A stretch of DNA of 64,000 nt from assembly GCF_000189635.1 (NCBI RefSeq), contig NW_002476396.1:124001-188000 (forward strand), given 5' to 3'. Positions 8,732 through 60,400 of the stretch are shown here, piece after piece. The position numbers and the translations under genes were made by a program. This DNA is from Tetrahymena thermophila SB210 (Eukaryota > Ciliophora > Oligohymenophorea > Hymenostomatida > Tetrahymenidae). Numbering within the stretch: the first letter of the stretch is position 1; each line of letters begins with the position of its first letter. The notes beneath the pieces were generated by a model. It ran no database searches and had not been told where the DNA came from. It worked only from the letters and a program-made list of their open reading frames with translations.

Positions 8732-8924
8732 AACAAATTTTTTATTCTCTTAAACCTTATTTCTACCAAAATTGATAATGAATTTCTACTTTGGTTGTTA
8801 TAATTAAATTAAAAATTTATTCTAAAAAATACTGAGTAAAAAGGAAATTAGTCAATTAAAAATTCTTATATTATTTAGAAGTTATAAAATATAAATTATA
8901 TTAATTAATTATGTACTATAAATA

Positions 8925-8998
<74 letters not shown>

Positions 8999-13607: not shown

Positions 13608-16600
13608 AACAAATCTCTCTTTCTCTTTCTCTTAACCATTAATTCTACCAAAATTGATAATGAATAATTAATTTCTTTTTTGGTTATAATTAATTTTAAA
13701 TTAATAAATTTGTTCTAATAAATACTAAATAAAAAGGAAATTAGTCTATAAAAAGTTATTATATTATTTTGAAGTTATAAAATATAAATTATATAAATTA
13801 TGTACACTATCTCAAATATTTTATCTTATTCTTAATGAAATGTATCGTTTTTCAATTTGCTTTAAAATTTTTAATTGATTTATCAAACAAATATTAAATA
13901 AATAGAGTCAATCATGCTCTTTGTTGTATATCAAAAAATAATAAGAAATCAATAATTTCTACTAAAGAAAAAAGGTTAATTTTTGTAATATTTATCTTAA
14001 TTGTTTGCTCTTTATAACAAGCAAAGTGTCTTAATATTATATTAAGGAAAAAGATATCTTTAGTAATGGAGTTAAAATGATAATTTATGTTGGATTAAAA
14101 ATAAAATCTATAAATTTATATTCTTAATTAAAGTAATTTTTATCTTACATGCAAAAAATAAAATATTATTTTAATATTTTAAATTATTTTTGATTTAATC
14201 CTTAAAATTGTTTATTTTTTATGATATGGTAACTGCTAAAAAAGCTTAAAATTTATATATTAGCCTGTAAAATAAATATAGCGCATAAGAATTTAGTAAG
14301 TTAATAGTCATTAAGTTAACAAAAAAATAAAGCAAATGTATTTATACATTTAATTTCAATAAATAATTATAAAACTAATTACTTTGAGGTATCCATTAAT
14401 TATAATGAATATTGATAACTTCTACTTTGTGATACTGCTTTGAATGAATAAGAACAAACAATTAAATGAATACAAAGCGCTAATCAAATGATATATAAAG
14501 ACCTATTTATAAAAAATGTCATATCATATTTTTAATTTATAGATGTACTGCTTGCTCTACTCTACAAAATTACTATTTTTTTAAACTCTAAAGTTTTAAA
14601 AAATATTTAGTATTTGAATACATTTTTTGTGAATAAGTTATAATCAAATAGAATAAAGATTAGACTATCATGATTAATTATCATTTAATTATTAGTAATT
14701 TGATTTAGATAGTTCTTATAAGCTTAAAAAGTTATTAAACACAAATAAAAGATTAAAATCACTAAAAGGATAAAAAATTAAATTTAACTTCTTATTTTGA
14801 TTAAGTCATTTTGACTGTTTTATTAGTGATCAATCCATAAGGCGACTAGTAATTTAATTTGTACTAGTTTTCCAATTTAATTAAACCAGTATATGATTTC
14901 ATTAATATTGGATAATGTTTACTACAATTAGAGTATGCTTACGCAAGCATTATAATTTTACTTAATATCTTTAGATTAATAAAATGTCATCATGATTTTT
15001 CTAAGCATATTTTAGTCAAAATGAAATAATCTTTCTTAATTATTATTTTTAGTATTCAAAAAAAAAGTTAATATTTTATAATTTCTATATTAAAATGCTA
15101 AGTTTGATAGGAAACTGACGAAATTTCAAGTTTTAAGTTTAATTTTTTACTAACAAATATTGTTTATTGTTAATCTATTCTTAGATTAATTCTAAAATAA
15201 AAAATATTTTTTTACAAAAAATAGACGTTTTCAAGAAATTAGCATTTAATATCAAACAATTTATTGTTTAAAATTTAAATAGTAAAATAGATTAAAAATG
15301 GCTAATAAATATATATATTATACCCAAATTATTTAGATATTTTGCTATTGTTTATCTTAATTTTCTTTGCAATTAATATAGGTAAGATTAATAATTTTGG
15401 CTTTTTTATTATTGATCAATCCATAAAGCGACTAGTAATTTAATTTGTACAGTTTTCTAATTTAATTAAATTAGTATATGATTTCATTAATATTGGATAA
15501 TGTTAACTACAATTAGATTATGCTTACGCAAGCATTATAATTTTACTTAATATCTTTAGATTAGTAAAATGTCATCATGATTTTTCTAAGCATATTTTAG
15601 TCAAAATGAAATAATCTTTCTTAATTATTATTTTTAGTATTCAAAAAAAAGTTAATATTTTATAATTTCTATTTTAAAATGCTAAGTTTGATAGGAAACT
15701 GACGAAATTTCAAGTTTTAAGTTTAATTTTTTACTAAAAAATATTGTTTATTGCTAATATATTCTTAGGTTTGATTAATTTAAAATGATACAAAAAATAA
15801 ACGTTTTCAATAAATAAGCATTTAGTATCAAACATAATATTATTTAAAATTTAAATAGTAAAATAGATTTATGATGGCTAATAAAAGTTATATTATACAC
15901 AAATTACTTTGATATTTAGCTATTGTTTATCTTAATTTCCTTTGCAATTAATTTAGGTAAATTAAATACAATAATAATACTATAAAAACATATTAACTAT
16001 TACTTAAAGATTTTTTGATTGTAATCAATAAATTAAAGATTAATGAGTGAATATTAATTAATAGTTAATGATTCTACCATTATTTTATAATATTCAACTC
16101 TTAATCTTACATTTGTTTGGAGTTAATAATAATTAAGCACATTTTATTCTAAAATAATAATTATAAATTTAAAATTTAAAATAGGAAATTACATAATAAA
16201 TTTAAAACAAAGGTTTTATGATAAAAATTAAAATAATATTATTTATTTAATTAGTCTTCATTATATCAAATATAGGGGTTAAATTCATATTTTCCCACTT
16301 TTCTACAAGAATTTAATACTTGGAAGTAATTTATCTACTTTAAAAAGATTGATTTTGCGTAGAATTTATAAGCAATAAATCTTAAAATAAAATATTAATT
16401 AGAGTTATTAACTCGAGTTAATAAAAAACTCGTTACAGCTCTGCTTCATGCTATCTTACAAACATATATCAATTTTATGAAAAAAATTAATGAATGAATA
16501 AACTAATCTTTATTTACAAAAAAAATATAAATAAATAAATATGCTTATACATCAAAAATCTAAATTTTTATGAATGAATTAATTTTATTTTTAGAAATAA

Positions 16601-39669: not shown

Positions 39670-42600
39670 TCAATATTTTATTTTTAAGCCAACTAATCTT
39701 TTTGATTTAAGGCATTTTACTTTCAATTATTTTGGTTTCATGATATCGTTGTTACTTTTTATAAATTAGTATAAATATAAAATTTTAAATCAATAAATAA
39801 CTCAAATAAATGTTAGTTAGCAGAATAAAAAAAAGAAAAAATAAATGAAATAAAAAACAAATTAATAAATAGATAGATAGATAGTTTTAAATTAATTCAA
39901 AAATATCACAATTTAAAACAAATAAACTATTTATTTTAACTAAAAATCAAGATAAAGTTTTAAATCAATAAATAATTCAAATAAATGTTAGTTAGCAGAA
40001 TAAAAAAAAGAAAAATAAATATTTAAAAATATAGTTTTAAATTAATTTTGAAATAGAAAAATATCACAATTCAAAACAAATAAACTATTTTTACTAAAGA
40101 TCAAGTGTCAAAATTAAGAGATTAGTGCACTTTCCTAAACTAGAAACTAAGTCTGATGATCCTTAATCACCAATTTAATTATCCCTTTTTAAATATCCAA
40201 GAAAAAATAAAGTGTTAATTTGTTAGTTAAAAGGATGAAAAATTTTAATATTAAGAAATTAATAATAAAAGTAAAATTTGAAACTGAAAAAATAAGATAA
40301 ATTAACAAGCAAACAGACAAAGAAGAAAATATATAAAAAACACAAGCAGAATTTAAAAAAAGAAAAATAAATGAAATCTTAAGAAAATAAATCAATAAAT
40401 TGTTTAAATTATTTTTTTATTCAAAAATATCACAATCCACAACAAAGATATAAACTGTTTTTACCTAAGATTAAGTGTCAAATTCTAGAGATTAGTGAAC
40501 TTTACTAAACTAGAACTTAAGCCTGATATGCCTTTATCGCTAATTGAATTTCCACTTTTGAAATATTGTAGAAAAAATATATAGTTAATTAGATAGTTAG
40601 TTAGAAGGATGAAAACAATGAAGATAACAAATAAAGTGTTTTTACCAAAATTTAAGTGTCAGTTTTGAGAGAATAGTGCACTTTTCTAAACCAGAACCTA
40701 ATCCTAATGTACCTATATCACCAATTGAATTTTCACTTTTAAAATATTGAAAAAAAAATTTAAGTTAATTAGTAATCTATAAGAAAAAATTAAAATATGA
40801 AATTATAAGAAATAAATTAATCAATTAATTAATAATAAAAGCAAAACTTGAATATGAAAAAATTAGTTAAATTAACAAACAAACAAATAATTAATTTAAT
40901 AAAAAACTCAATCATTAAAAAAAAAAAATAGATGAATACAAAAAAAGATAATAAATAAATTAATTAATTATAAGAGTTAATTAGTAAGTTATATTTTTTT
41001 AAATTCATTTTTATATTCAAAAATATCACAATCCAAAATAAATAAACTATTTTTACATCAGATTAAGTGTCAAATTTGAGAGATTAGTGCACTTTCCTAA
41101 ACCAGAACCTAAGTCTGATGCACCAATTTCCTTAATTGAATTTGATCTGTTTAAATATTTAAGAAATAATTAATTAATTAGTTAATAAGAAAAAATATTA
41201 AATAAAAAGAAATGATTTAATTAATTAATAAAAAAAGCAAAACTTGAAAATGAAAAAAGAATTTAAATTAATTAATAAACAAAAACACAAGCAGAATAAA
41301 AAAAAGAAAAGAAATTAAATAAAAATTTAATAAATCAATTAAAAGAGTTTGTTGGCTTTATTGTTTTCAATTCATTTTTATATTCAAAAATATCACAATC
41401 CAAAATAAATAAATTGTTTTTACTCTAGGTCAAGTGTCAAATTCTAGAGATTCTTGCACTTCCCTAAACCAGAACCTAAACCTGATGTACCTTCATCACC
41501 AAAACAATTTTAACTTTTTAAATATTGAAGAAAAAATAAAGAGTTAATTAATTAGTTAGGTAAAAGGAAAAAATGAAGAAATAATAAGAAATTAATTAAT
41601 AATAAAAGAAAATTTGAAAATGAAAAAATGAGTTAATTTAACAAACAAGCAAATAAATGAAAAAAAACACAAATAGAATAAATTTTACTAAAGTAAAAGT
41701 GTCAAATTTGAGAGATGAGTGCACTTTCCTAAGCCAGAACCTAAGTCTGATGCACCAATTTCACTAATTAAATTTCCACTTTTTAAAGAAAACATAAATT
41801 GTTAATAAGTTAGTTAAAAGGTAAAATTAAGTAAAATATGAAATAATAAGAAATTAATTAATTAAAAAATAAAACTAAAAAATGAAATGGGTTATATTAA
41901 TTCAATCAAATAAAAAGCTAATATATTAATTAATTAAAAGAGTTCTTTTTTTACTCTAGATTAAGTGCCAAATTTGAGAGATTAGTGCACTTTCCTAAAC
42001 CAGAAGCTAAGTTTGATATACCTTCATCATCAATAGAATTTCCACTTTTTAAGTATTGAAGAAACAATAATTAATTAATTAATTAGTTAAAAGGACAAAA
42101 TGAAGAAAAAAATATGAAATAATAAGACAGACATTAATAAATCAATAATAAAAGCAAAACTAGAAAATGAAAAAATAAAAAATAAATCAAATAAAAAACT
42201 ATTAAATAAATAAATTAAAATAGTTAGTTAGTTTTTTTTGTTTTAAATTCATTTTTATAAAACAGATAAATTTTTTTTACTCTATATTGAGTCTCAAGCA
42301 TGAGAGATTAGTGCAATTTCCTAAACCAGAAACCAAGCTTGATGCACCTTCACCGCCAATTGAATTAACACTTTTTAAATATTTTAGAAAAAATATATTA
42401 TAGTAAATTAATTAGTTAGAAAGATGAAGAAAAAATATGAAATAATAAGAAGTTAACTTTTTATAAATTTGAAATTGAAAAAACGAATTAGATTAACAAA
42501 AAAACACACAAGTAGAATAAAATAAAATAAATAAAATAAAAATCTAAGAAATAAAAAAATTAAATCAAATAAATTTGATTTACCTTAGAAAAAGTTTTAA

Positions 42601-45082
42601 ATTCTAGAGATTAGTGCACTTTCCTAAAGCAGAACCTAATTCTTATGCACCAGTTTCACCAATTAAATTTCCACTTTTAAATATTGAAGAAAACATATAT
42701 AGCTCATTAGTTAGTTAGTTAATTAGTTAAAAGGTAAAATTAAGAAAAATATGAAATAATAAGAAATAAATTTATTAAAAAACAAAAATTGAAAATTAAA
42801 AAATGAGTTAAATTAACTAATAAACAAGGAAATAAATAAATAACAAAAGCAGAATATATAAAAAAGAAAAATAAATCAAATAAAAAGCAAATAACTAATA
42901 AAATAAAAATAGTTTGCTATATTATTTTAAATTTATTTTTATATTCAAGAATATCATAATCCAAAACAAATAAACTTTTTTACTATAGATTGAGTGTAAA
43001 ATTTGAGAGATTAGAGCACTTTTCTAAACAAGAAACTAAGTTTGATACGCCAATTTCAAAAATTGAATTATTCCTTTTTAAATATTGAAAAAAAAATATA
43101 GAGTGAAATACTATATTAAAAATAAAAAATAAATCAAGAAAAATATGAAATAATAAGAAATTAATAATAAAATCAATACTTAAAAATAAAAAATTAGTTT
43201 AATATAAATAAAAAAAACATTAGCAGAATAAAAAAAAGAATGAAATAAAATGTTAATAAATAAATAAATTAAAATTGTTTTTTATATTCAAAAATATTAA
43301 AATTTAAAACAAATAAACAGTTTTTACTCTAGATATAGTGCTAAATTTGAGAGATTAGTACACTTTTCTAAGATAGAACCTAAACCTGATGTACCTTCGT
43401 CACTAATTTAATTTCCCCTTTTTAAATATTGAAGAAAAAATATATTATTAATTTGGTAATTAGATGGAATAGTATGAAATTAATCATAAAAACAAAACTT
43501 GAAAATCAAAAGATGAGTTAAATTAACAAATAAATAAATAAAAGATTAAGAAAATAATAAAAAATGAAAAAGAAATCAAATAAAAAGCTAATAAATTAAA
43601 AAATTAGAAGTGTTAGTTAGTTGTTATTTTATTTTAAATTCTTAAAAGTAATTAAAATTATAAACAACTAAAGTATTTTTACCAAAGTTTAAGTGTCAAA
43701 TTTGAGAGACTAGTGCACTTTCCTAAACCAGAGCTTAAGTCTAATGCACCAATGATACCAATTTAACTTCCACTTTTTAATTAATTATAGAAGAAAAACA
43801 CATAAGAATAAGAAATTAATTAATTAATAATTAAATCAAAACTTGAAAAAAAAAATTAGTTAAATTAGTAAGCAAATAAATAAATAAAAAACACAAGTAG
43901 AATAAAAAAAAGAAAAATAAATAAAATAAAAAGCTAATAAATAAATAAATTAAATGAGTTTGCTAGTTATATTTGTTTATATTCCTTTTTATTTTGTATG
44001 TTTGCTTAAATTTAATTATAATTGAAAAATAAAATAATATTTTTCAAAAATATCACAATCCAAAACAAATAAACTGTTTTTACCCAAGATTAAGGGTCAA
44101 ATTTTAAAGAAAAGTGCAGTTTCCTAAAGCAGAACCTATGTTTTATGCACCAATTTCATTAATTGAATTATTCCTTTTTAAATATTCAAGAAAAAACGTT
44201 TAGCTACTCTAAAATCTCGTTCAAAGCCTCTATCCTCCTTAAAAAATAAATATTTTTTAGAGGATAGATCTAAAATTTTCTTCAAAACCCCATTGAGGCA
44301 TTTATTAATTAGTTAAGGTTTTAGAGTAAGTAAGTAAGTAAGTAATTACTTAGTTAGTTAGTTATATGGATGAAAAAATAAAGAAAAAATAAAAATGAGT
44401 TAAATTAACAAAAAAATAAATAGATAAATAATAAAAACAAGCAGCATAAAAAAAGAAAAATAAATAAATCAAATAAAAAGTTAATAAATAAATAAATAAA
44501 AAGAGTTAGTTAGCTAGTTAATTAGTTAATAATATTGTTTTAAATTCATTTTTATATTCTAAAATATCACAATTAAAAATAAATAAACTTTTTATACTCT
44601 AGATTGAGTGTCAAATTTTAGAGATTAGTGCACTTTCCTAAAGCAGAACTTAAGTCTTATGCATCAATTATAACTCTTTTTAAATAAATATTGATGAAAA
44701 AATATATCGTTAGTTATTTAGCTAGCTAGAAGGAAAAAATGAAGAAAAAATAAAAAATTAATAATCCTAATAAAAATTGAATGAAAATTAGCTAAATATT
44801 AAAAAATATTTGTATTAATTTTGATGATAATTAAATTTGAAAAATAAAGTTGTATGTAAATCATTTGAAAATTAAATAAAAAAAACATTAATAATAATAT
44901 ATTAATAAATCAAACAAACAAACGTACTTACTTATATCTCAGATCAATATGGAGAACCTAAAATGATTAAAGTGAAAAGCTTAAAAACTTTTGTTATTAA
45001 TAAAAATAAATTGAAACTAAATCAATAAAAAATAAATATTTACTTCTTCTAGATTATTAAAATAATTTTTCTATTACATCAT
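39670..45082 (-). CDS. LRR protein gene 1, 14 single-LRR exons
   Basis: Seventeen exons predicted from the 3' end: 39670-39754, 40095-40184, 40465-40554, 40646-40735, 41057-41146, 41424-41513, 41689-41778, 41955-42044, 42281-42370, 42584-42673, 42984-43073, 43328-43417, 43683-43772, 44084-44173, 44598-44675, 44932-44957, 45044-45082. Together they give a 465-residue protein ending in TGA. Each middle exon encodes one ribonuclease-inhibitor-type LRR (N-x-I-G-D-E-G-A-S-x-L-G-S, then L-x-K-C-T-N-L-S-N-L-T-L-x-L). Exons begin after ...aaaag and end before gta; all junctions are phase 2 except the first (phase 0). Exon 1 encodes MMQQKNYFNNLEE and the last a basic tail with CLKSKRLV. No signal peptide or membrane segment seen, so probably intracellular and protein-binding. 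Start and splice sites are my predictions, supported by matching phases. Confidence 0.8.
40095..44675 (-). repeat. Exon-plus-intron LRR array 1
   Basis: Fourteen units of a 90-nt LRR exon (the first is 78 nt) plus intron, repeating every 180-425 bp. The introns are themselves homologous: downstream of each exon comes aaacagtttatttg...gtgatatttttgaatataaaaatgaa, then taactctttt...agctttttattt, and the branch/acceptor side ends ttcttcaatatttaaaaag (given in gene sense, with variation). The repeated unit is therefore exon and intron together. Confidence 0.85.
44205..44328. mobile_element. MITE-like 124-bp element in an LRR intron
   Basis: Inverted ends tactctaaaa (44205-44214) and ttttagagta (44319-44328) enclose a strong internal hairpin, ctatcctcc to gaggatag at about 44230-44268, and a second pair, gcctc/gaggc. 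It interrupts the intron sequence shared by the LRR units and is absent from the corresponding introns. No clear target duplication was identified. Its end sequence (ctctaaaa) loosely resembles the agagtaaaa ends of the element at 314-425, but the two are not obvious copies. Confidence 0.5.
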
Positions 45083-45821
45083 TTATTTTTTTATCTAAAA
45101 AATATTGAATAGCAATTTATTGAAATTTAATTAATTAACTTTTATATCAAATTAATTTAGATAAAATTAACAATTAAATTTTAATAATTATCAAATATAT
45201 ATTATAAATTTGCTTTTAGGATGGACCAGAAATTACAAAAAAGTTAAATTTTAAGATAAAATTAATAATTAAGATTAACAATTTTTAGTTATTTTTTTAT
45301 GCTATCATTTTATAAACCTGCTTCAAAATATTTTTTTGATTTCTTTAAATTTTTTATTACTTTATTAAATAATATTTATCGTTCTTCAAAATATATAATT
45401 CTTACTCAAGAAATAATTATTTGAGTATAGTTATATGCTTAAAATCATATTAATTTCCATTATTAATTAATTTAATTTAAATCTTTGAAATAAAAGATTC
45501 ATATTAATATAATTTAACAATACATAATAAGACATCAGCTATTATAATAAGCTTTGACTGTTAATGGTAAAATTTCTTGGTTCATTTTAAAGGAATTACC
45601 TTATTTAAGTAAATTTAATACTTAAATTTTGTTTTATTTAATAAACTATTTATTAAATAACTTATTAAAATATTTCATTGATAAATATAAAAATTATAAA
45701 AAATCAATCTATCTATGGATATTTTAGGTTAATTTATCTGCTAACAAAATATTAAAATATAAAACATATTATATTAAAGTATTCAAATATATTATTTATC
45801 TTCATTTCGCCAGCTAGTTTT
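45083..45821. other. Spacer between LRR genes 1 and 2
   Basis: 5' flank of gene 1 and 3' flank of gene 2, no gene. Bases 45083-45300 match 51830-52030 (5' flank of gene 2), and 45717-45821 match 39550-39669 (3' flank of gene 1), so gene plus flanks was duplicated in tandem with a period of about 6.15-6.75 kb. Confidence 0.65.
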
Positions 45822-48800
45822 TCAATATATTATTTTTAAGCCAACTAATCTTTTAGATTTAAGGCATTTTGCTTTCAATTATTTTGTATAATTGATATTG
45901 TTGTTACTTTTTTTATAAATTCGTGTAAATTAATTACTAAAAATAAAGAGAATAAAAATAATTTTAAATAAAATATAAAATAACAAATAATTCAAATGTT
46001 AGTTAGCAGAATAAAAAAAAAAATAAATCAAAAAAAAAAGCAAATAAATAAATATTTAAATTTTTAAATATGACAATTCAAAACAAATAAACTATTTTTA
46101 CTAAAGATCAAGTGTCAAATTTGAGAGATTAGTGCACCTTACTAAACTAGAAACTAAGTCTGATGATCCTTAATCACCAATTTAATTTTCTCTATTTAAA
46201 TATTGAAGAAAAAATAAAAAGTTAATTTTCTAGTTAAAAGGATGAAATAGTGAAGAAAAATATTAAATATTAATAATAAATGTAAAATTTTAAACTGAAA
46301 AATGAGTTAAATTAGCAATCAATCAAACAAACAAATAAATAAAAAACACAAGCAAAATAAAAAAAAGAAAAATAAATCAAATCATAAGATAATGAATAAA
46401 TAAATTGTTTTAAAATTATTTTATATTCAAAAATATCACAACCCACAACAAAGAAACAAAGAAACAAACTTTTTTTTTTTACCCAAGATCAAGTGTTAAA
46501 TTTGAGAGATTAGTACACTTTTCTAAACCAGAACCTAAGCCTGATGCACCTTCACCGCCAATTTAATTTTTACTTTTTAAAGATTAAAAAAAGAAAATAA
46601 ATAAATAAATAAATTGAAAGGGTTTGTTAGTAATATTGTTTGCTATAAATTCATTTTTATATTCAAAAATATCACAATCCAAAACAAATAAACTGTTTTT
46701 TACAAAAGATTAAGTGCCAAATTCGAGAGATTCATGCATTTTCCTAAAGCAGAACCTAAGTTTTATGCTCCAATTGCACCAATTTAATGTTCACTTTTTA
46801 AATATTGAAGAAAACATATTTAGTTAATTAGTTAACTGTAAAACTTGAAAATAAAAAAAAGAGTTAAATTAACAAACAAAGAAATTAATAAATAACCGAA
46901 AAAATATAAAGCAAAAAAAGAAAAATAAATCAAATAAAAAGCTAATTAATAAATAAATAAAAAAATTAAAAGAAATTATTATTTATTTTTTAAAATTAAT
47001 TTTTAAATTTTAAATATCTCAATCCAAAATAAATAAATAAGCTGTTTGTTTTTTTGTTTTTACAAAAGATCAAGTTCTAAATTTGAGAGATTAACACACT
47101 TTCTTAAAGCAGAAACTAAGTCTGATACACCAGTTGCACCAATTTAATTTTCCCTTTGTAAATAAAAGAAAACATATTTATCTCCTTATTTAGTTAGTTA
47201 GTTAGAAGGATAAAATGAAGAAAAAGTGTGTAATATTAAGAAATTTAATTCATGAATAATAATAAAGGCAAAACTGAAAAATGAGTTAAATTAACAAACA
47301 AACAAATAAATACATAAAAACACAAGCAGAATAAAAAAATAAAAAAAGTAAATCAAAAAAAAAGCTAATAGATTAATTAAAAGAGTTAGTTTATTATATT
47401 ATTTCAATTCATTTTTGTATTTAAATATCACAATCAAAAACAAATAAAGTGTTTTTACCAAAATTTAAGTGTCAAATTTGAGAGACCTGTGCACTCTCCT
47501 AAACCAGAACCTAAGCCTGATACACCTTCATCAATATTTGGATTTCCACTTTTAAATATTGAAAAAAAAAAATTTTGCTAATTAATTAGTAAGCTAGAAG
47601 AAAAAATTAAGAAAAAATATGAAATAATAACAAAGAAAGAAAGGAACTAATTAATATTTTTACCTTAGATCAAGTATCAAATTTGAGAGATTAGTGCACT
47701 TTCCTAAACCAGTACCTAAGTCTGATGCACCAATTGCGCCGATTGAATTTTCCCTTTTTAAATATTGAAGAAAAATTTTTTTATTTATTAGTTAGTAAAA
47801 AGGTAAAAATTAAGAAAAAATATTAAATAATAAAAAATGACTTAATTAATAAATAAAGCAAAACTTGTAAATGAAGAAAGAAGTTAAATTAATTAATAAA
47901 CAAAAACTAAAGCAGAATAAAAAAGGAAAATAAATCAAATAAAATTCTAATAAATCAATTCAAAGAGTTAGTTAGTTTTATTATTTTGAGTTCATTTTTA
48001 TATTCAAAAATATCACAATCAAAAACAAATAAACTGTTTTTACTGTAGGTCAAGTGTCAAATTTGAGAGATTACCGCACTTTCCTAAACCAGAACCTAAA
48101 CCTAATGTACCTTCATCACCAATTGAATTATTACTTTTTAAATATTCAACAAAAAATAAAGAGTTAATTAATTAATTAGTTAGTTAGTTAGTCATAAGGA
48201 AAAATAAAGAAAAATATGAAATAAATAGTAAGAAATTAATTAATTAATAATAAAACAAAATTTGAAAATGAAAAAATGAGTAAATTAACAAACAAACAAA
48301 TAAACAAATAAATAAATAATAAAAACACAAGTAGAATATAAAAAAAGAAAAATAAATAAAATGAAAAGCTAATAAATAAATTTAGAGAGTTAATTTGTTA
48401 GTTATGTTGTTTTAAATCTATTTTTATATTCAAAATATTCAAAACAAATAAATTGTTTTTACTAAAGATCAAGGGTCAAATTTGAGAGATTAGAGTATTT
48501 TCCTAAACCAGAACCTAAGTCTGATGCACCATTTGCACCAATTGAATTTTCCCTTTTTAAATATTGAAGAAAAAATATATAATTAATTAGGTAGTAAAAA
48601 GGAAAAAATGAAGAAAAAATTTTAAATAATAAGAATTAAAATGCAAAACTAGAAAATAAAAAAATGGGTTATATGAATAAGTAAACAAATAAATAAATAA
48701 AAAGCAGAAAAAAAAGAAAAATTAATCAAATAAAAAGCTAATAAATAAATAAAATTAAAAGAGTTAATTAGTTAGTTAGTTATATTATTTTAAATTAATT

Positions 48801-51800
48801 TTTATACTTTAAAATATCACAATTCAAAATAAATAAACTTTTTTTACTCTAAATAAAGTGTCAAATTTGAGAGTTTAGTACACTTTCCTAAACCAGAAAC
48901 TAAGCTTGATATACCTTCATCATCAATTAAATTTCCACTATTTAAATATTGAAGAAAAATTATATGATTAATTAAAAAGTTAGTTAAAACGAAAAATAAA
49001 GAAAAAATATAAAATAATAAGTAATAATAAAAGTAAAACTTGAAAATGAAAAATCAGTTAAATTAAAAATAAAAACATTTAAACACTAGCAAAATAAAAA
49101 AAAATAAATAAATAAATCAAATAAAAAAATATTAAGTAAATAAATAAATAAAAAGAATAAGTTAGTTAGTTATATTGTTTTAAATTCATTTTTATATTAA
49201 AAAATATCACAATCCAAAACAAATAAACTTTTTTTTACTCTAGATTGAGTGTTAAATTTGAGAGGTTAGGGCAATATCCTAAACCAGAACCTAAGCCTGA
49301 TGCACCTTCACCGCATATTTAATTACTACTTTTTAAATATTATAAAAAAATATATAGTGAATTGGTTAGTTAGAAGGATGAAAAATTAAGAAAAATATGA
49401 AATAATTAGTAAATAATAAATTAATTAATTAATAATAAAAACAAATTTTGAAAATGAAAAAATGAGTTAAATTAATAAACAAAAAAACAAACAAAAACAT
49501 TAATAGTATAAAATAAAAAAATATAAATCAAATAAGAAGCAAATAAACAAAAAAATTAAAAGAGTTAGTTAGTTATATTGTTTTAAATTTATGTTTATAT
49601 TCAATAATATCACAATTTAAAATAAATAAATTGTATTTACATTAGAAAAAGTTTCAAATTAGAGAGATTATTCCACCTTCCTAAAGCAGAACCTAAGTTT
49701 TAAGCACCAATTACACCAATTAAATTTCCACTTTTTAGATATTGAAGAAAACACAAAGAGTTCATTAATAATTTAGTTAAAAGGTAAGATTAAGAAAAAT
49801 ATGATAAAAATAAGAATTCAATTTATTAAAAAATAAAGCTTGAAATTGAAAAAATGATTTAATTTAACTAATAAACAAAGAAATAAAAAACAAAAGTAAA
49901 ATATAAAAAAAGAAAAATAAATCAAATAAAAATCAAATAAATAAAAAAATTAAAATAATTTGTAAAATTATTTTAAATTCATTTTTATCTTCAAAAATAT
50001 CACAATCCAAAGCAAATAAACATTTTTTACTCTAGATTAAGTGTAAAATTTGAGAGATTAGAGCACTTTTCTAAATCATAAACTAAGTTTGATGCTCCAA
50101 TTGCACTAATTTAATTTTTCCTTTTAAATATTGAAGAAAAAAAAGAGAGTTAATTAGTTTGTTAAAATCAAAAAATGAAGAAAAAATACGAAATAATAAG
50201 AAATTAATTAATAATAAAAAAGAAAAACATGAAAATTAAAAAATGAATAAAATTAACAAATAAATAAATAAATACATAAACATAATAATAAAAAAGAATG
50301 AAATAAAAAGTTAGTAAATAAGAAAATTAAAACTATTTTTTTTATTCAAAAATATTAAAATTTAAAACAAATAAACTTTTTTTACCCTAGATTTAGAAAT
50401 AAATTTGAGAGATTAGCGCATTTTCCTAAACCAGAACCTAAACCTGATGTACCTTCATCACGAATTGAATTTCCCCTTTTTAAATATTGAAGAAAAAATA
50501 TAAACTAATTATTTAAATATGTTAGAAAGAATTATAAGAAATTAATAATAATATCAAAATTTGAAAATGAAAAAATTAGTTAAATTAAAAAAGAAATAAA
50601 GATAAAAAAATACAAACAGAATAAAAAAAATGAAAAATAAATCAAATAAAAAGCTAATAAATTAAAAAATTAAAAGAGTTAGTACTTAATTAGTTATATT
50701 AAATTCATTTTTATATTCAAAAATATCACAATTAAAAACAAATAATGTATTATACCAAAGTTTAAGCGTCAAATTTTAGAGATTAGTACACTTTCCTAAA
50801 CCAGAACTTAAGTCTGATGCACCAATGACGCCAATTTAATTTCCACTTTTTAATAAATTATAGAAGAAAAAATATAAAGTAAATTATTTTTTAGAATAAA
50901 AGATGAAGATAAATATAATATAATAAGAAATTAGTAAAAAATAAAAGTAAAACTTGAAAATGAAAAATGAGTTAAATTTGCAAACAAACAAATAAAAAAC
51001 ACAAGTAGAATAAAAAAAAGAAAAATAAATAAAATAAAAAACTAATAAATAAGTAAATTAAATGAGTTTGCTAGTTATATTTTTTTATGTTCATTTTTTT
51101 TTCAAAAATATCACAATCTATAATAAATAAATTAACTGTTTTTTACTCAAGACTAAGGGTTAAATTTGAGAGATAAATGCAGTTTCCTAAAGCAGAACCT
51201 AATTTTGATGCACCAATTTAATCAATTGAATCCCACCTTTTTATCAGTAATAAAAAAAGAAAAATAAATAAATAAAATAAATAGCTATAAATAAATTAAA
51301 AGAGTAAAAAATATCACAATTCAAAACAAATAAATTGAATTTACGCTAGAGAAATTGTCAAATTAGAGAGATTAGTGCACTTTCCTAAAGAAAAATCTAA
51401 GTCTTAAGCACCAATTTAATTTCTTTTTAAATATTAAAGAAAAAATAAAGAGTTAATTAGTTAGTTAGAAGGAAAAAATGAAGAAAAAATATAAAATTGA
51501 AAAAAAATAATTAATAGTCATAATAAAAATTGAATGAAAATTAGCTTGAAATAACTAAAAAGTATTTTGTATTAATATAGATGTTAATTTAAATTTGAAA
51601 AATAAAATTGTAAATTATTTGAAAATTAAATAAAAAAAATATTAATAATAATAATATTAATAAATCAAGTATACTTATTATTCAGATCAATGTGGACAAC
51701 CTAAAAGGATTCAAGTGAAAAGCTTAAAAACTTTTGTTATAAATAAAAATAAATTAAAACCAAATTAATAAAAAAAAATTTAATATTTACTTCTTCTAGA

Positions 51801-51829
51801 TTATTAAAATCATTTTTCTATTGTATCAT
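45822..51829 (-). CDS. LRR protein gene 2, 16 single-LRR exons
   Basis: Nineteen exons predicted from the 3' end: 45822-45906, 46102-46191, 46483-46572, 46704-46793, 47064-47153, 47459-47548, 47664-47753, 48044-48133, 48463-48552, 48848-48937, 49239-49328, 49641-49730, 50031-50120, 50386-50475, 50756-50845, 51147-51236, 51345-51422, 51675-51700, 51791-51829. The sum is 1578 nt, 525 residues and TGA. Exon 1 encodes MIQQKNDFNNLEE, exon 2 VVHIDLNN; fifteen LRR exons are exactly 90 nt and the first is 78 nt as in gene 1. The last exon gives the basic CLKSKRLVGLKI tail. No in-frame TGA in the exons I read. It is a tandem paralogue of gene 1 with two more LRRs. A binding-scaffold role is general family knowledge; the ligand is unknown. 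Confidence 0.8.
46102..51422 (-). repeat. Exon-plus-intron LRR array 2
   Basis: Sixteen exon-intron units with spacing of 200-425 bp and the same conserved intron landmarks as array 1. Two pairs of exons lie unusually close (46483/46704 and 47459/47664, likewise 51147/51345). In those places the intervening introns are shortened, consistent with deletions or unequal exchange inside the array. Confidence 0.85.
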
Positions 51830-52417
51830 TTATTTTTTTTATTATAAATATTGAACCGAAATTTATTGAAATTTAGTTTATTATAAGTATATTAACAATT
51901 TAATTAACCTTTATATCAAATTAATTTAGATAAAATGAACAAATCAATTTTAATAATTATCAGATATAAATTTATAAATTTACTTTTAGGAGAAAAAATC
52001 ACAAAAAAGTTAAAATTTAACTTAAAATTAATTATTAAATCTTCATATTTCTATTAAAAATTTTTACATATAAAATAGTTAGAATCATGATATAAAGAAA
52101 AATTTGTGGTCTAGAGCTTTTTCATAATTCATTTTTTTGTAAGTAAGTAATTACTTGAATTTTTTCAATTTCTAACTACATACCTCCAATTCCTAATATA
52201 TTTTAAGTGTAAGCTTTAAATAGAAATATTAAGATGAATGTTAATTACACTAACTTTTTTGTGATGTCTCTTCCTAAAAGCAAATTTAAAAATTCATATT
52301 TCATAATTACTATAATTTATATATTTATTTATCTTTTTTATCCACTAATAATTAATTTATTAATTAAATTTCGATTAATTGCTATTTAATATTTTTTAAA
52401 AATAAATAAATAAATAA
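51830..52417. promoter_or_regulatory. Shared divergent intergenic region of LRR genes 2 and 3
   Basis: 588 bp separate the two start codons, which point away from each other. The halves resemble inverted copies of each other: for example the segment after the gene 2 start (aaatattgaac...aaatttattgaa) has a reversed counterpart before the gene 3 start (tttcgattaattgctatttaatattt). Any promoters for both genes must lie here or in the first introns. No specific factor site can be named; the AT content is near total. Confidence 0.45.
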
Positions 52418-55105
52418 ATGATATAAAAGTTTAAATATTACAACAAATTAGAAGAAGTAATTATTTATTTTTTATGAGAATACTTTAAATTTATTTTTAT
52501 AAATAAAAAAAGTTTTTAAACTCTTCACTTTAATCTCATTAGGATCTCCATATTAATCTGAGGTATGTTTAATTTATTAATTAATAATTATTAATAATTA
52601 TGTTTTTAATATAATTAACTTTCAATTTATTTTTCATATTATTTTCCTAATAAAATCATTATTTCATATTTTTTCTTCCTTTTTTCCTTCAAAATAACTA
52701 ATTAATTAATTAATTAATAATATATTTTCTTTTCAATATTTAAAAAGTTACAATTCAATTGCTGCAATTGGTGCATCAAACTTAAGTTTTGCTTTAGCAA
52801 ATTGCACTAATCTCTCAAATTTGACACTTTCTCTTAGGTAAAACAGTTTATTTGTTATGAATTGTGATATCATTAATTATAAAAATGAATTTAAAATAAT
52901 AAAACTATTTTAATTTATTAATTAATTAATTAGCTTTATATTTTATTTCTTTTTCTTTTCTATTATGCTTATTTTTTTGTTTCCTTTCTCTCTAATTTAA
53001 CTCATTTTGTTATTTTCAACTTTTTCTTTTCTTATTAATAAATGAATTCGCTTCTTATTTTTTCCTTCTAACTAACTTGTTAATTTTTTATTTTTTCATC
53101 AATATATAAAAAGTTATAATTAAATTGGTGCAATAGGTGCATCAAGCTTAGGTTCTGCTTTAGTAAATTTAACTAATCTTTCAAAGTTGGTACTTGAACT
53201 TTAGTAAAAGCAATTTTTTTTTTGGATTGTGAAATTTAAAATTATAAAATTTACTTTAAACAAAAAACTCTTTTAATAAATATATTAGATAGATTTTTAT
53301 TTGATTTATTTTTCTTTTTCTTTTTAATTTTTCTTGCATTTTTTATTCCTCTATCTTACTCAATTTAATTAATTTATAAATTTTCAACTTTTGATTTTAT
53401 TATTATTTCATACTTATTCCTACTAACTAATTATATATTTTTTCTTCAATATTTAAATAGAGGTAATTAAATCTGGGCAAATGGTGCATCAAGCTTAGGT
53501 TCTGCGTTAGCAAATAGCATTAATCTCTAAATTTTGACGCTTAAACTTTAGTAAAACAGTTTATTTATATTAAATAGTGTTATTTTTAAAATAAATATGA
53601 ATTTAAAACAATTAAACTCTTTTAATTTATTTGATAAATTTTATTTTTTATTTCTTTTTCTTTTACTTTTTTCTTTTAAATTTAACTCGTTTTTAAATTT
53701 TCAAATTTTGCTTTTATTATTAATTAATTCCTTTCTAATAATTAATTACATATTGTTTGTTTATTCATTTTTCCTTCTTACTATATAATTAATTTTTATT
53801 TTTTCTACAATATTTAAAAAGGAACAATTAAATCGGGGCAATTGGTGCATCAAGCTTATGTTCTGGTTTAGCTAATTGCACTAATCTCTCAAATTTGACA
53901 CTCGAACTATAGTAAAAAAAGTTTATTTATTTTAGGTTATGATATTTTTAATTAAAAAAATGAATTCAAAACAATAAGCTCTTTTAAATTATTTGATTTT
54001 TTTTCTTTTTCTTTTTTTATTTTGCTTGCGTTTTTTTTCTTTTAATCTTTCTTAAATTAACTCTTTTTTCATTTTCATTTTCAACTTTTACTTTTATAAT
54101 TCATTTCTTACTTTTTCTTAATTTTTTCCTTCTAACTAACTAACTAATTAAATAATAATATTTTTTCTTCAATAAAAGTGACAATTAAATTGGTGATGAA
54201 GGTACATCAAGCATAGGTTCAGCATTAGCAAATTTTACTAATCTCTCAAATTTGGCACTTTATCTTAGGTAAAAACATATCATTTGTATTGATTTGTGAT
54301 ATTTTTAATCATAAAAATGAATTTATAGTAATAAAATTCTGTAATTTATTTGAAAGTTTCTTATTTTATTTATTTATTTTTTTCTTTATTTGTTAATTAA
54401 ATTAACTCTTTTTTCCTTAATTATTAATTAATTTCTTATTATTTCATGTTTTTTCTTCATTTTTACTTTCTAACTAATTAATTATATGCTTTTTTTTAAT
54501 ATTTAAAAAGTAATAGTTAAATTTGTGATTTTGGCGCATCAAACTTAGGTTCTGGTTTAGGAAAGTGCACTAATCTCTTAAATTTGAAACTTGGACTTTC
54601 GTAAAAACAGTTTATATATTTATTTGTTTGTTTTGGATTGTGATATTTTTTAATATAAAAATTAATTTAAAATAATAAAACTCTTTTAATTTATTTATTT
54701 GATAGCTTTTTATTTGAATTAATTTTCTCTTTCTTTTTAATTGTTCTTAATTCTGTTTAATTTTACTTATTTATTTTTTTATTTTCAACAATTTCTTTTA
54801 TTATAAATTAATTTTTTATAATTTAATTTTTTCCTTCTAACTATCTAACTAGCTAATTAATTATAAATTTTTTATTGAATGTTTAAATAGTTGCAATAAA
54901 ATTGGTGATGAAGGTATCTTAAGTTTAGGTTCTGCTTTTGCAAATTTAACTAATCTATAAAATTTGATATTTGGACTTTAGTAAAATCATTTTTTTTAAT
55001 TTGGATTGCAATATTTTAATTTTAAAAATGAATTTAATAAAGCTCTTTTAATTTATTTAATAGTTTTTTATTTGATTTATTTTTTTTATTGTGTTTATGT
55101 TTTTT

Positions 55106-55137
<32 letters not shown>

Positions 55138-55770
55138 TATTAATTTAATTCATTTTTTATTTTAAACCTTTTGCCTTTATTATTTATTATTATTTTAAAA
55201 AGGTTTTTTTAATTCTTTCCTTTTAACTAAATAACTAAATAACTAACCAATTAATTTTATATATTTTTTTCAATATTTAAAAAGATTTACTCCGTTTAGT
55301 GATAAATGTGCACTAGGATTAGGTTTTGCTTTAGCAAACTGCATTAATCTCACAATTTTGACACTCAATCTTAAGTAATAGCAGTTTAATTGTTTTTGAA
55401 CTGTGATATTTTTAAATATAAAAATGAATTTAAAAAATATGAATTTATTTATTAATTTGTTTATTAGCTTTTTATTTGGTCTATTTTCAAATTTTGCTTT
55501 TATTATTAACTAATTAATTCATTAATTATTATTATTATTTTTTTCCTTCTAACTAACTTATTAATAATATATTTTTTCTTTAATATTTAAAAAGTGGAAA
55601 TTAAATTGGTGATGAAGGAATATCAAGCTTCGTATCTGCTTTAGCAAATAGTGTTAATCTCTCAAATTTAACACTTGAACTTTAGTAAAAATAATTTATT
55701 TGTTTTAGGTTCTGATATTTTTAATTATTAAAATAAATTTAATCTGTTTTATTGTGCTTCTTTTTTTTTC

Positions 55771-55831
<61 letters not shown>

Positions 55832-56678
55832 AATCTTATTTAACCAATTTTTATTTTCAACATTTGCTTTTATTATAAATTGATTAATTTATTATTTTTT
55901 CCTTCTGAGTAAATAATTATACATTTTATCTTTTATCTTTAATATAAAAAAAGTTCTAATTAAATTGGTGATAAAGGAGCATCAGGCTTAGGTTTTTCTT
56001 TAGTAAATTTCATTAAGCTCTCAAATTTAGCACTTTATCTTGAGTAAAACAGTTTTTCTGTCTGTTGGGATGATGATGTTTTTAAATATAAAAATTAATT
56101 TATTTGATTTATTTTTTTCATCTTATTTATTGTGTTTGTTTTTTTCTTTTCAATATAACTTAATTTAAGTTATTTTTTATTTTAAATTTTTGTTTTTATT
56201 ATTAAATCTTTCATCCATATCTTATATTTTCTTCATTTTTTCCTTCAAATTAAAAAGCTAATTTTATATTTTTTCTTCCAAATTTATAAAGAAATAATTA
56301 AATTGGTGCAAATGGTGCATCAAGCTTAGGTCTTTCTTTAGCAAATTGTACTAACCTCTCAGATTTGAATCTTAATCTTTTGTAAAATAGTTTAATTATT
56401 TATTTTTGATTGTGGTATTATAATAAAAAAATGAATTTAAAACAATAAAAATTATTTAATTTATTTGATAGCTTAATATTTTTTTTCTTTTACTTTTTTT
56501 TATTATTCTTCTAATATTTTTTTATTTATTAATTTAAAATATAATTTTTAATTTTTAGTAATTTATTCTAATTTATAATAAAAGAAAAAACTAAATCAAT
56601 GAATAATAATAATAATTGAAATTTAAAAGCAAATGTCTCAAATCTAAAAGATTAGTTGTCTTTGAAATAATTATCTGA
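52418..56678 (+). CDS. LRR protein gene 3, 11 single-LRR exons
   Basis: Exons: 52418-52456, 52543-52562, 52748-52837, 53114-53203, 53461-53550, 53822-53911, 54179-54268, 54511-54600, 54891-54980, 55285-55374, 55595-55684, 55954-56043, 56292-56381, 56585-56678. All eleven LRR exons are exactly 90 nt and phase 2 at both ends; total 1143 nt, 380 residues. Exon 1 gives MIQKFKYYNKLEE, exon 2 DLHINL; the repeats read N-x-I-G-A-I-G-A-S-x-L-x-S-x-L-A-N-C-T-N-L-S-N-L-T-L-x-L. The last exon has a Gln run then KCLKSKRLVVFEIII and TGA. It is an inverted paralogue of genes 1 and 2, more diverged; several split codons at exon junctions are TA|A or TA|G, which read as Gln only in the ciliate code. Probably intracellular, function unknown. 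Confidence 0.82.
52748..56381 (+). repeat. Exon-plus-intron LRR array 3
   Basis: Eleven 90-nt exons with exon starts 244-376 bp apart; introns start gtaaaa(a) or gtaat and end in atttaaaaag-like acceptors. Introns contain local microsatellites not found in the other arrays: (tttc)n at about 55100-55138 and (tatc)n at about 55771-55832. Confidence 0.85.
55771..55832 (+). repeat. (TATC)n microsatellite in LRR intron
   Basis: About 15 tandem units of tatc within the intron between the exons at 55595-55684 and 55954-56043. The motif is the same as at 8926-8998. Confidence 0.95.
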
Positions 56679-57462
56679 TGGTGATAGACAGACAGACAGA
56701 CAATTTGTGAAAAATGATGAATAATATAAAATATTTGAATTTTAGAATATAATATGTATAATTATTTTATATATTGCAATTGTATAATTTAACTTAAAAT
56801 ATATATAAATAGATAAATAAATAGACTTATTATTATTTTTATATTGTAATTAAAATATTTAATTTTTGTGATTTTAAGCTAATTTTACACTTTCTATTTT
56901 ATAATTTTTTTTATCAACCTGATTTTTTAAAGATATTTTCTTATTGCAAAATTTATAAATGAAATTAATTAATTTTAAATAAGTGATAATCAAAAATATC
57001 AAACTACTTTTAATAAAATATAAAATATTTGAATATTAGAATATAATATGTATAATTAATTATTTTATATATTGCAATTGTATAATTTAACCTAAAATAT
57101 ACATAGATAGATAGATAAATAAATAGACTTATTATTATTTTTATATTGTAATTAAAATATTTAATTTTTGTGATTTTAAGCTAATTTTACACTTTCTATT
57201 TTATAATTTTTTTTATCAACCTGATTTTGTAAAGATATTTATTTTCTCATTGTAAAATTTATAAATGAAATTAATTAATTTTAAATAAGTGATAATCAAA
57301 AATATCAAACTACTTTTAATAAAATAAATGAAGTCAAGTAAAAGGAAGCATGAAAAAATATAGAAGTAATTGAAATATAAAATAATAAAAACAGTGATAT
57401 ATATAAATAATATACTTTATAAATTAAGATATTAATTAATTATATAGTAAATATATTTTATT
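56679..57462. repeat. Spacer with 294-bp tandem duplication
   Basis: Between the tail of LRR gene 3 and the 3' end of the ABC transporter. A (gaca)n stretch follows the LRR stop (56686-56702). Two direct copies of a block of about 294 bp follow (about 56727-57020 and 57021-57323), nearly identical from taaaatatttgaat through caaactacttttaataaaata. No gene seen. Confidence 0.85.
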
Positions 57463-60400
57463 TCATTATGATTTATTTTGTTAGAACTGTGAGAAGTAAA
57501 CGAAAATTGAGGCAAGTGAGCTTTAGGAGATTTAAAAGTCACTTATCAAGCCTTACTTTAAGCAGAGATTATTTTCAAAGAAATCAAATGTATTGCTTAA
57601 AGAGAAATTTTAGTAAGGTAAGATAAGAGCAATTTGTTAATTGTCAGACTGGTCATTTAGAAGTTTGGCTTATTGGAATTGCTTTAGTACTTCTTATTTG
57701 GCAACTTCTGTTTTTTATGCTGTAAAAGTAATTTTGTAGCCTTCTCCATATTTTTCTTTCAGGAATTAAGGAGTACCGTAGCAGATAAACTTACCATTAA
57801 TAAGAATACCAATTTTAGAGCACAAGCACTCAGCCTCATCCATGCTGTGAGTCGTTAAAACAATAGCTCCATTTCTTAATTTTAGACTTTGACTGAGAGT
57901 GTTCCATAAAAATCTAAATTATTTATATTAGAATTAGCTTCAAAATTATTTTTAAAAATCTATCTATATTTACCTTCTTGCAATTGGATCGACACCTGAT
58001 GATGGTTCATCAAAGAATTACATGTCTGGACCTCCAATCAATGCCATAGAAACACATAGTTTTCTTTTATTACCTCCACTCAATTAAGAAGCTTTTCTAT
58101 TTATGTAATCTTCTAATTGCATTACTTTCAAGAAATAATCTATGCTTTCTTTCAGATCGTTTCCTTTTAAGCCTTTAATTCTTCCAAACAAGCGGAGATG
58201 TTCAAATACAGTCAAATTTTCATATAAATTATCGAATTGTGGGCAAATTCCTACATCTTAATAAACCTCCATTAAACCGCTTTCGACTTCAATGTTTTTG
58301 AGTTTTACACTGCCTTAGCTCTTAGGGATTAGAGAAGTTAAAATGTTAAAGGTTGTTGATTTACCAGCTCCATTAGGTCCTAATAAGCCTAAAATTTCTC
58401 CATTTTAGACTCCAAATGAGTTATTTTTAATAGCAGTATAAGGAGGTGTCTTTTTATCTATCCTATAAGTCTTATAGAGGTGAGATACTTTTATTTTATC
58501 TTAACAATTCATGTTAGAGACTCTATGATCTTCTGCAGCTACTTCTGCAGGAGTAGGTTGATTTTCAAATTCACTGTAATCGATTTTAGGATCAGCCTTA
58601 AACTTTTCCGTTCTTTGTTCAATTCTTAATGCGATCCAAGCATAAACAATACCTTAACCTAGAAGGATGATAACGTACTACCAAATTTGATTTTACCAAG
58701 ATGGGTAATTGGCATCGTTATATTCTTTGCTGAAAGGTAGAGTGTCTGAAGAAATTAACTAAGTTCCAACATTATAGCAAAGATAAGGAGAAATAAGTAC
58801 CATGAAGCCCTTATATTAAAAAATAAATCAGTATTGAATTAAATATTTTATAAATTAAGCTTACCTAAGCGGTTTTTGACTGAGAAGCAATAAGAGCTGG
58901 GATTGTATAAAAGAGGAAATAGTTGACAAAGAAAACAAGCTAATTAAATTTTAAAATAATGATGAGTTAAAAAAGGAAGGAAATGTATTATTAAATGAAA
59001 TACCTTGTAAGCTGTTTAAGATTTCTCAAAAAAGAAAGAAAGGAAATAAGATTAGCAAATAATTGCGAAGATAAAAAGCTAGGTTAAACCAAAGAATTCG
59101 CCAAAATGATCTGTAACTGCGTTAAATCCAATTATAAAACAGATTATGAAGAAGATATAGAGATTGATTGAAATAAAGATAAAATCAAAAATGAAGGTTC
59201 CCAACCAGTAGGGTAAACTTCTGCATCCCATAACATTAAGGGAATATCTTAATTTTAATTCTCTCTCCATGACAGGAACTCCACAAAAGCTGGTTGTAAC
59301 AAAATTGTATGCGATCATGCCAAAAATTCCTATTAATTTGAAGAATAAATTCAGTAAAGGAATAGATATTGTATTCAAATTTTACCGAAAATGATGATTT
59401 AGAGGAATTAAACAGATATTTATTGGTCAGGATTTGTGTTATCATTATTAACTGTACTCTCTGTTATAGCGTAATTAGCAACAAATACTCCAACTAATTG
59501 TAGTAAAAGAGGTAAAAAGAAGCTTATAACTATAGAAATTGATCTCATAGTTATAAAGACCTTTCTTTAGAAACATCCAAAAGTTTAGTTTAAGAAATCA
59601 AAAATGGGAGCCTTTTTTAAGCATTCAGGAAGAGCAATATTAGAGAAATCTGTGAATTTTTCTTAAACCAACTAAGTCTTTGATAAAAAAGATATTAATT
59701 AATTCAAATATATTTATCTTATTTTTAATAAGAAACATATACCATAATTCCTTTCTATCTTTTTTCACTGCCATATCTAAATTTTATGGCAGAAGAATTT
59801 TTATAAAAATTGTTGGTAAATTAAGTCCTCGACATATTTGCGTGGAAGAGCGGCTAAGGAATTATGGTAAAGAATTAAATAAATGTGTAAAAATTATTTA
59901 GAGGGAAAATTAGATGGTGAATGAATGAAGAAGAATAAGTAGAAGTTTTGTTAAAGTGAAATTAAGATAATTTTACTTGATTTTCAGAAGGATTTAAATA
60001 TTTATTTTCATCCATACCAATGTTAATGAAAGCGTCTTCAAGAGTATTTGCTTCTAGATCGAGATTGAGCTCATTATCTTTCTCTAAAGTTGAAAAAAGA
60101 TTTGAAAAATGCTATTTAGAAGAAAAGGGGAGAGTGAATTTAACTATTCCAACTTGACTCTAAGGGTTGTACTTTGCTTCTGGGATGATTTAATTTATGA
60201 TTTATCTAATTTAATTGCATTTTTCTGATGACAATTGATATTCTTTTTTAGAAATCTCTGGTGCTTCATTTTATTTCAAATCTATTTAAGATTTTTAAGA
60301 TGAGTTTATTTAATTTTCAGATTTTTTAGCTATTGTGAGATGGTAGCCTACTCCGAAATTTCTTTTGATAAACTCGTTTGTGCCAAGAGTTAAAAGCTTT

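Follow-up and report, generated by a model that had tools for sequence, protein, structure and literature searches.

Three Tetrahymena thermophila genes built from arrays of 90-nt leucine-rich repeat exons, and a young element inserted at nearly one nucleotide of related exons

Introduction

We analyzed a 64,000-nt stretch of the Tetrahymena thermophila SB210 genome (contig NW_002476396.1, positions 124,001 to 188,000; 'the window', numbered below from its first base), in which three neighboring genes encode leucine-rich repeats (LRRs) on long arrays of 90-nt exons. The telomerase reverse transcriptase (TERT) locus of this genome fits the species: two of its exon blocks, separated by an intron, match the TERT chain of the T. 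thermophila telomerase (PDB 6d6v) without a difference. The three LRR genes are almost certainly young members of group III within the known 90-bp-exon LRR family (Xiong et al. 2019; PMC6564038). Outside the window, the same genome holds exons of this kind interrupted by a short element that resembles a short interspersed nuclear element (SINE) and sits in all of them at nearly the same spot. We lean, if only slightly, towards the view that a site-specific short retroelement, active in the recent past, uses the 90-nt LRR exon as its dedicated landing site; exon skipping would provide it with a safe harbor, and its nicking of the exons would feed unequal exchange.

According to Xiong et al., phase-2 introns and "tandem arrays of exactly 90-bp exons" characterize thousands of LRR genes across ten Tetrahymena species, and no other organism is known to have such arrays (PMC6564038). 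In T. thermophila, 1,500 of the 1,874 LRR genes contain at least one 90-bp exon, with 1–51 per gene, and the introns of group III peak at about 257 bp. The same source dates the family to after the Tetrahymena-Paramecium divergence, reports purifying selection in most of its genes, cites RNA-seq for other genes (S8 Fig legend), and proposes unequal crossing over, possibly with the REP retrotransposon, as the source of the arrays. We found no second paper on Tetrahymena 90-bp exons in the open-licence literature searched.

Results

Gene models were built from the window sequence under the ciliate code (code 6). Genes 1 and 2 lie in tandem on the minus strand, and gene 3 lies head-to-head with gene 2 on the plus strand (Table 1). 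The original prediction, made from the sequence of the window, had given these genes 14, 16 and 11 LRR exons, each in phase 2 on both sides and 90 nt long except for the first LRR exon of genes 1 and 2; the models confirm this to the base in 41 LRR exons, 39 of which are exactly 90 nt and two 78 nt, with 13, 15 and 11 consecutive 90-nt exons in genes 1, 2 and 3. Phase 2 is kept at every junction between LRR exons, every intron has GT...AG borders, and the introns between LRR exons range from 91 to 424 nt (n=38, median 273.5). Internal TGA is absent from all three coding sequences, each of which is open up to its terminal TGA. The predicted size of 17–19 exons and about 465–525 residues holds for genes 1 and 2 (467 and 530 aa), not for gene 3 (14 exons, 375 aa). 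The original prediction calls the layout extreme for a ciliate. Relative to the rest of the genome this may be so; within the Tetrahymena 90-bp-exon LRR family as Xiong et al. present it, the layout is ordinary (PMC6564038). The first exons of genes 2 and 3 are related to each other as an inverted repeat (51675-52562).

In the models, each gene consists of a short start (a 39-nt exon and one of 50–56 nt), an array of units and a short last exon; the repeating unit of about 350 nt is one 90-nt exon, which codes for one ribonuclease-inhibitor (RI)-type LRR, plus its intron. The proteins of all three genes are almost wholly LRR. A Pfam scan, which covered genes 1 and 3, matched gene 3 to PF13516 (RI-type LRR_6) at 68.5 bits (cut-off 23.4) and found no NACHT or other non-LRR domain in either gene. 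The nearest solved proteins to gene 3 (11 sequences in the PDB) are dynein regulatory complex subunit 5 (DRC5), other LRR proteins from ciliary and other complexes, and RanGAP. From its sequence, the product would be a bare LRR solenoid that binds other proteins and has no enzymatic domain.

Genes 1 and 2 look like colinear tandem duplicates that differ by two units. Their LRR exons 1–12 pair one-to-one, and exon 14 of gene 1 pairs with exon 16 of gene 2. Since exon 13 of gene 1 (40554-40465) has no clear partner in gene 2, two units appear to have been gained or lost near it. Seen from gene 1, 10 of the 12 paired 90-nt exons match their colinear partner best (exceptions exons 9 and 12), and seen from gene 2, 9 of 12 do so (exceptions exons 7, 9 and 11); over 13 colinear pairs, divergence is 0.149 in exons and 0.172 in introns. 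Mean exon identity between units is 0.71–0.75. Compared column by column, introns are for the most part conserved between units to about the same degree as exons, which indicates that the multiplying unit is the exon together with its intron. Plain unit duplication therefore suffices, and a separate conserved intron element, which we had considered, was dropped. Unequal exchange between units could alter the number of LRRs while keeping the frame, because the unit boundary is always in phase 2 and the exon is a multiple of three. Together, the gene models, the unit comparison and the Pfam matches support the view in the original prediction that each symmetric phase-2 exon carries one RI-type LRR and that whole units are gained and lost.

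Related sequence is abundant: a two-exon stretch of gene 2 has at least 391 similar places in the same 101-Mb genome. We sampled 32 loci, mostly best DNA matches and hence biased to near relatives of the query; outside the window these hold 130 distinct related units, spread over 15 contigs, and their regularity goes beyond chance. AG and GT stand precisely 90 nt apart in 124 of these units, and TGA occurs in the phase-2 frame of none of the 124 exact exons, compared with 96 and 88 of 124 for the other two frames. The acceptor AG is misplaced in the remaining six units. If the closest plausible AG is taken instead, three of them come to 87, 81 and 72 nt, each length divisible by three; one (L032) could be 94, 75 or 66 nt; and two are interrupted by the SINE-like element described below.

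Selection on the repeats was assessed in several ways. Between genes 1 and 2 there is not one indel in 1,158 paired exon nucleotides, where the introns, with 63 gaps in 2,623 aligned positions, would lead one to expect 27.8. Leucine stands at repeat positions 12, 16, 22, 25, 27 and 29 in 36, 38, 39, 37, 38 and 36 of 39 exons. For 22 exon pairs that are each other's best match, 8 of which include window exons, nonsynonymous divergence (dN) was set over overall synonymous divergence (dS) by position class, the classes having been defined from knowledge of LRRs after the profile had been seen: the ratio was 0.21 at core positions (bootstrap interval 0.10–0.35), 1.50 at strand-exposed positions (0.91–2.29), 1.22 in loops (0.82–1.71) and 1.06 at helix-exposed positions (0.71–1.49), with no exposed class significantly above 1. 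A constrained core beside exposed classes at about 1 or above suggests that the Leu/Asn/Gly scaffold is held by selection and that the exposed surface is free or diversifying. On these grounds the arrays do not look like debris, and the three genes look intact.

Four points do not sit easily with this picture of intact, colinear members of group III. Gene 1 matches only a broader LRR model in Pfam (PF23598), at 35 bits and below its cut-off of 40; 2 of 12 exons of gene 1 and 3 of 12 of gene 2 are closer to another exon than to their colinear partner; the label 'group III' is drawn from intron length and nucleotide-level repetition; and the overall dN/dS between genes 1 and 2, 1.08 (0.74–1.63), is not clearly purifying and looks neutral when taken alone. 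This last value, with the near-equal variation of codon positions 1–3 between units (0.23, 0.30 and 0.28), would suit decaying pseudogenes left over from repeat amplification. Such genes are nevertheless hard to reconcile with three fully open coding sequences, the lack of exon indels, a roughly 5-fold constraint on the core positions and the restriction of TGA to the two non-coding frames of the exact exons outside the window, and we consider decay very improbable.

Equally improbable, in our judgment, is that copying alone, through young clonal units, maintains the exon length of 90 nt without selection on the frame. That introns are nearly as similar between units as exons speaks for such copying, but introns of the same units vary more than fourfold in length and show 63 gaps between genes 1 and 2 where the exons have none, and the length exceptions that can be read clearly stay multiples of three, both in the window (78 nt, twice) and outside it (87, 81 and 72 nt). 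As to the surface, the ratios at the three exposed classes, each above 1, raise the possibility of diversifying selection as in recognition receptors; since all three intervals include 1 and the classes were chosen after seeing the profile, we hold this somewhat less probable than relaxed constraint.

The element elsewhere in the genome came to light in the two interrupted units, which carried the same GC-rich sequence in front. A 16-mer of this element head, TCGAGNCGCTTAGCCC, has 43 exact genome matches (control 0); in the window it has none, even with up to 3 mismatches. At each of the 43 places the head points the same way, antisense, and abuts an LRR exon at almost the same position, the host exon being diverged in one case (L056). 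An (ATAC)n tail follows on the far side in 37 of the 43; one of these (L071) runs off the fetched piece, and both ends can be read in 36. All 36 are flanked by target duplications of 12–14 bp (13 bp in 31, 12 in 4 and 14 in 1), and reconstruction of the empty site gives an open exon of exactly 90 nt in every case. The element interrupts the exon after nucleotide 19 in 34 copies and after nucleotide 20 in 2, within the codons for N-x-I-G-D. The letters of the duplications vary between copies as the host exon varies, and most insertions are therefore independent; possible exceptions are two copies on C50 that look like a local duplication, and L036, L048 and L057, which share 60 nt on the exon side.

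The element is about 400 bp long, and its copies are about 99% identical. In the 34 copies that were aligned, the body measures 390 nt in 31 and pairwise identity is 98.3–100% (mean 99.3%). A search with the whole element, in which 40 of 54 candidates were scored, gave 41 matching pieces, all 99–100% identical, with no old copies among the pieces scored. In 13 host loci (two of which overlap), 71 of 71 other recognised LRR exons are exact and open; the insertions are so young that these intact companions say little on function. Reading on from the exon into the element meets a TGA after 64–67 residues in 4 of 4 copies checked. We dropped the idea that the insert splices itself out, from a GT within the target duplication to an AG close to the head, as the length gained is not consistently a multiple of three from one copy to the next.

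To judge from L079 and L080, two 5'-truncated copies that lie between target duplications at the usual exon site, target-primed reverse transcription is the probable route of insertion. The short, fixed-length body, the target duplications and the simple-repeat tail (36 of 43 head places) are traits of a SINE. The head also contains a motif, GGTTCGAATCC, that resembles the B-box consensus. Neither ARAGORN nor Rfam called a tRNA in the head, and Rfam on three element-bearing pieces gave five weak matches below the gathering score, none of them a tRNA; as RNA, the head folds no better than shuffled sequences do (z −0.56; 54 of 200 shuffles at least as good). With a B-box-like motif present yet no tool calling a tRNA, 'SINE' is the best label for the element rather than a proven one.

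Several sequences related to the element differ from the standard copies. Six head places (L035, L052, L055, L056, L066 and L069) have no (ATAC)n tail within reach; they show the same head (in L056 its last part only) at the same exon site, several with another body, and such heads joined to different sequence are perhaps other subfamilies or chimaeras. A search with the tail, allowing up to 3 mismatches, gave 43 places, one of which, L085 (C20:79500-80250), is a diverged tail copy that by inspection lies outside any LRR exon. L076 and L077 share the 3' tail at the LRR exon site, with a body behind it that is different or shorter; they are possibly remnants of a partner long interspersed nuclear element (LINE). 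At L084 (C181:12950-13800) nothing but a long (ATAC)n run occupies the usual exon site, and some of the exon is missing.

Other features of the window were recorded in passing. An intron of gene 1 holds an insert with inverted-looking ends, judged by eye (44198-44325); as a candidate miniature inverted-repeat transposable element it was rejected, the only match in the genome search being the insert itself. Downstream of gene 3, about 290 nt appear, again by eye, to occur twice in tandem (56730-57320), and an ABC transporter gene (ABC_tran, ABC2_membrane_3) adjoins the LRR cluster on the minus strand (57940-59426). On the same strand, cysteine-rich genes follow one another in 16616-38238; their matches to Ephrin_rec_like are weak to moderate (four open reading frames scanned, two at or above the cut-off), some copies being identical over 300 nt. 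Four related copies of about 0.85 kb, direct and inverted and about 91–98% alike, occupy 2273-13627, where two open reading frames had no Pfam match. Rfam at gathering scores and ARAGORN found nothing in the window.

Table 1. Coordinates of the three LRR genes in the window and places of the SINE-like element elsewhere in the genome
Feature	Position	Strand	Details
Gene 1	45082-39659	-	17 exons, 467 aa, 14 LRR exons; gene model
Gene 1, exon 1	45082-45044	-	39 nt, ATG
Gene 1, exon 2	44987-44932	-	56 nt
Gene 1, first LRR exon	44675-44598	-	78 nt, in frame, 12 nt below 90
Gene 1, array	40095..44173	-	Thirteen 90-nt phase-2 LRR exons; gene model
Gene 1, 5' bases of 90-nt exons	44173, 43772, 43417, 43073, 42673, 42370, 42044, 41778, 41513, 41146, 40735, 40554, 40184	-	
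Gene 1, last exon	39719-39659	-	TGA at end
Gene 2	51829-45802	-	19 exons, 530 aa, 16 LRR exons; gene model
Gene 2, exon 1	51829-51791	-	
Gene 2, exon 2	51730-51675	-	
Gene 2, first LRR exon	51422-51345	-	78 nt
Gene 2, array	46102..51236	-	Fifteen 90-nt phase-2 LRR exons; gene model
Gene 2, 5' bases of 90-nt exons	51236, 50845, 50475, 50120, 49730, 49328, 48937, 48552, 48133, 47753, 47548, 47153, 46793, 46572, 46191	-	
Gene 2, last exon	45871-45802	-	TGA at end
Gene 3	52418-56678	+	14 exons, 375 aa, 11 LRR exons; gene model
Gene 3, exon 1	52418-52456	+	
Gene 3, exon 2	52513-52562	+	
Gene 3, array	52748..56381	+	Eleven 90-nt phase-2 LRR exons; gene model
Gene 3, 5' bases of 90-nt exons	52748, 53114, 53461, 53822, 54179, 54511, 54891, 55285, 55595, 55954, 56292	+	
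Gene 3, last exon	56630-56678	+	TGA at end
Two-unit difference, approximate place	46483..47153	-	Gene 2 LRR exons 13-15 (47153-47064, 46793-46704, 46572-46483) vs one unit in gene 1
Element head places	L022 and L034-L075, 43 places	antisense to LRR exon	All read, counted by genome place; outside the window

Discussion

Like the family of Xiong et al., the three window genes have tandem exons of exactly 90 bp that begin and end in phase 2, each coding for a single LRR with six conserved leucines; their introns are long, and the number of units varies between paralogues. We found no departure from that family in the window (PMC6564038). Genes 1 and 2 have the look of a whole-gene tandem duplicate, a class that makes up about 1.6% of T. 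thermophila LRR genes (PMC6564038). The layout of 90-nt exons with one repeat per exon is already known, and the novelty that the original prediction implied for it is not supported in view of the 2019 description (PMC6564038): the window observation is correct, not novel. What the window offers is a clear and intact case of a very unusual known family and a useful, clean example of gain and loss unit by unit.

The repeats themselves follow the RI-type consensus found in RI, in RanGAP and in the LRR domains of vertebrate NLR proteins; set against such proteins, the window genes have a repeat of 30 residues, and the Pfam scan of genes 1 and 3 showed no domain besides LRRs, NACHT included. Vertebrate NLR genes likewise carry their LRRs on in-phase exons. 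The parallel that the original prediction drew with them is an analogy from general knowledge, and its suggestion of an independent origin agrees with the dating of the Tetrahymena family after the split from Paramecium (PMC6564038).

The SINE-like element adds something to this picture. Its entry in antisense orientation after exon nucleotide 19 or 20, with a duplication of 12–14 bp, is read directly from the copies, and it has been seen almost only there. An exon hit in this way could be skipped with the gene staying in frame, because each LRR exon is symmetric (phase 2, 90 nt). If the exon were no longer recognised, it would leave a long 'intron with a remnant', as in legends of the paper on the family (PMC6564038). 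The repetitive LRR family would thereby act as a safe harbor for the element, and repeated nicking of its exons would feed unequal exchange, with the arrays growing and shrinking as a result. As most transposon DNA is removed from the macronuclear genome, that genome may under-represent copies elsewhere; such a bias cannot explain the fixed nucleotide. If this proposal is right, a nick at one base of the LRR exon would be a concrete molecular trigger for array expansion.

A SINE-like element in LRR exons appears to be unreported so far. The terms 'SINE', 'tRNA', 'target site' and 'TSD' do not occur in the main text of PMC6564038, and 'SINE' and 'LRR' were not found in the accessible part of the germline genome paper (PMC5182062). 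Among the matches listed in our search of the open-licence literature, no report of a Tetrahymena SINE in LRR exons was found.

The closest known relation within Tetrahymena is with Tt.REP, whose non-LTR (long terminal repeat) retrotransposon remnants, with a 54-bp tail, lie in introns of LRR genes, REP itself being germline-limited according to the same paper (PMC6564038). Tt.REP and our element each have a short conserved 3' tail, and in both cases retroelement tails are kept in the macronuclear genome beside LRR units (PMC6564038). They differ in that the element is mostly about 400 bp, has a GC-rich head with a B-box-like motif and lies in the exon, at one nucleotide and between target duplications, whereas the REP remnants are described as intronic (PMC6564038). 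Like R2, Utopia and other target-specific non-LTR retrotransposons, the element enters a multicopy sequence at a fixed nucleotide, duplicates its target and occurs in 5'-truncated form. Unlike these, it has as its target a family of protein-coding exons, which, if our proposal holds, would join rRNA, tRNA and snRNA genes and telomeres among the homes of site-specific retroelements.

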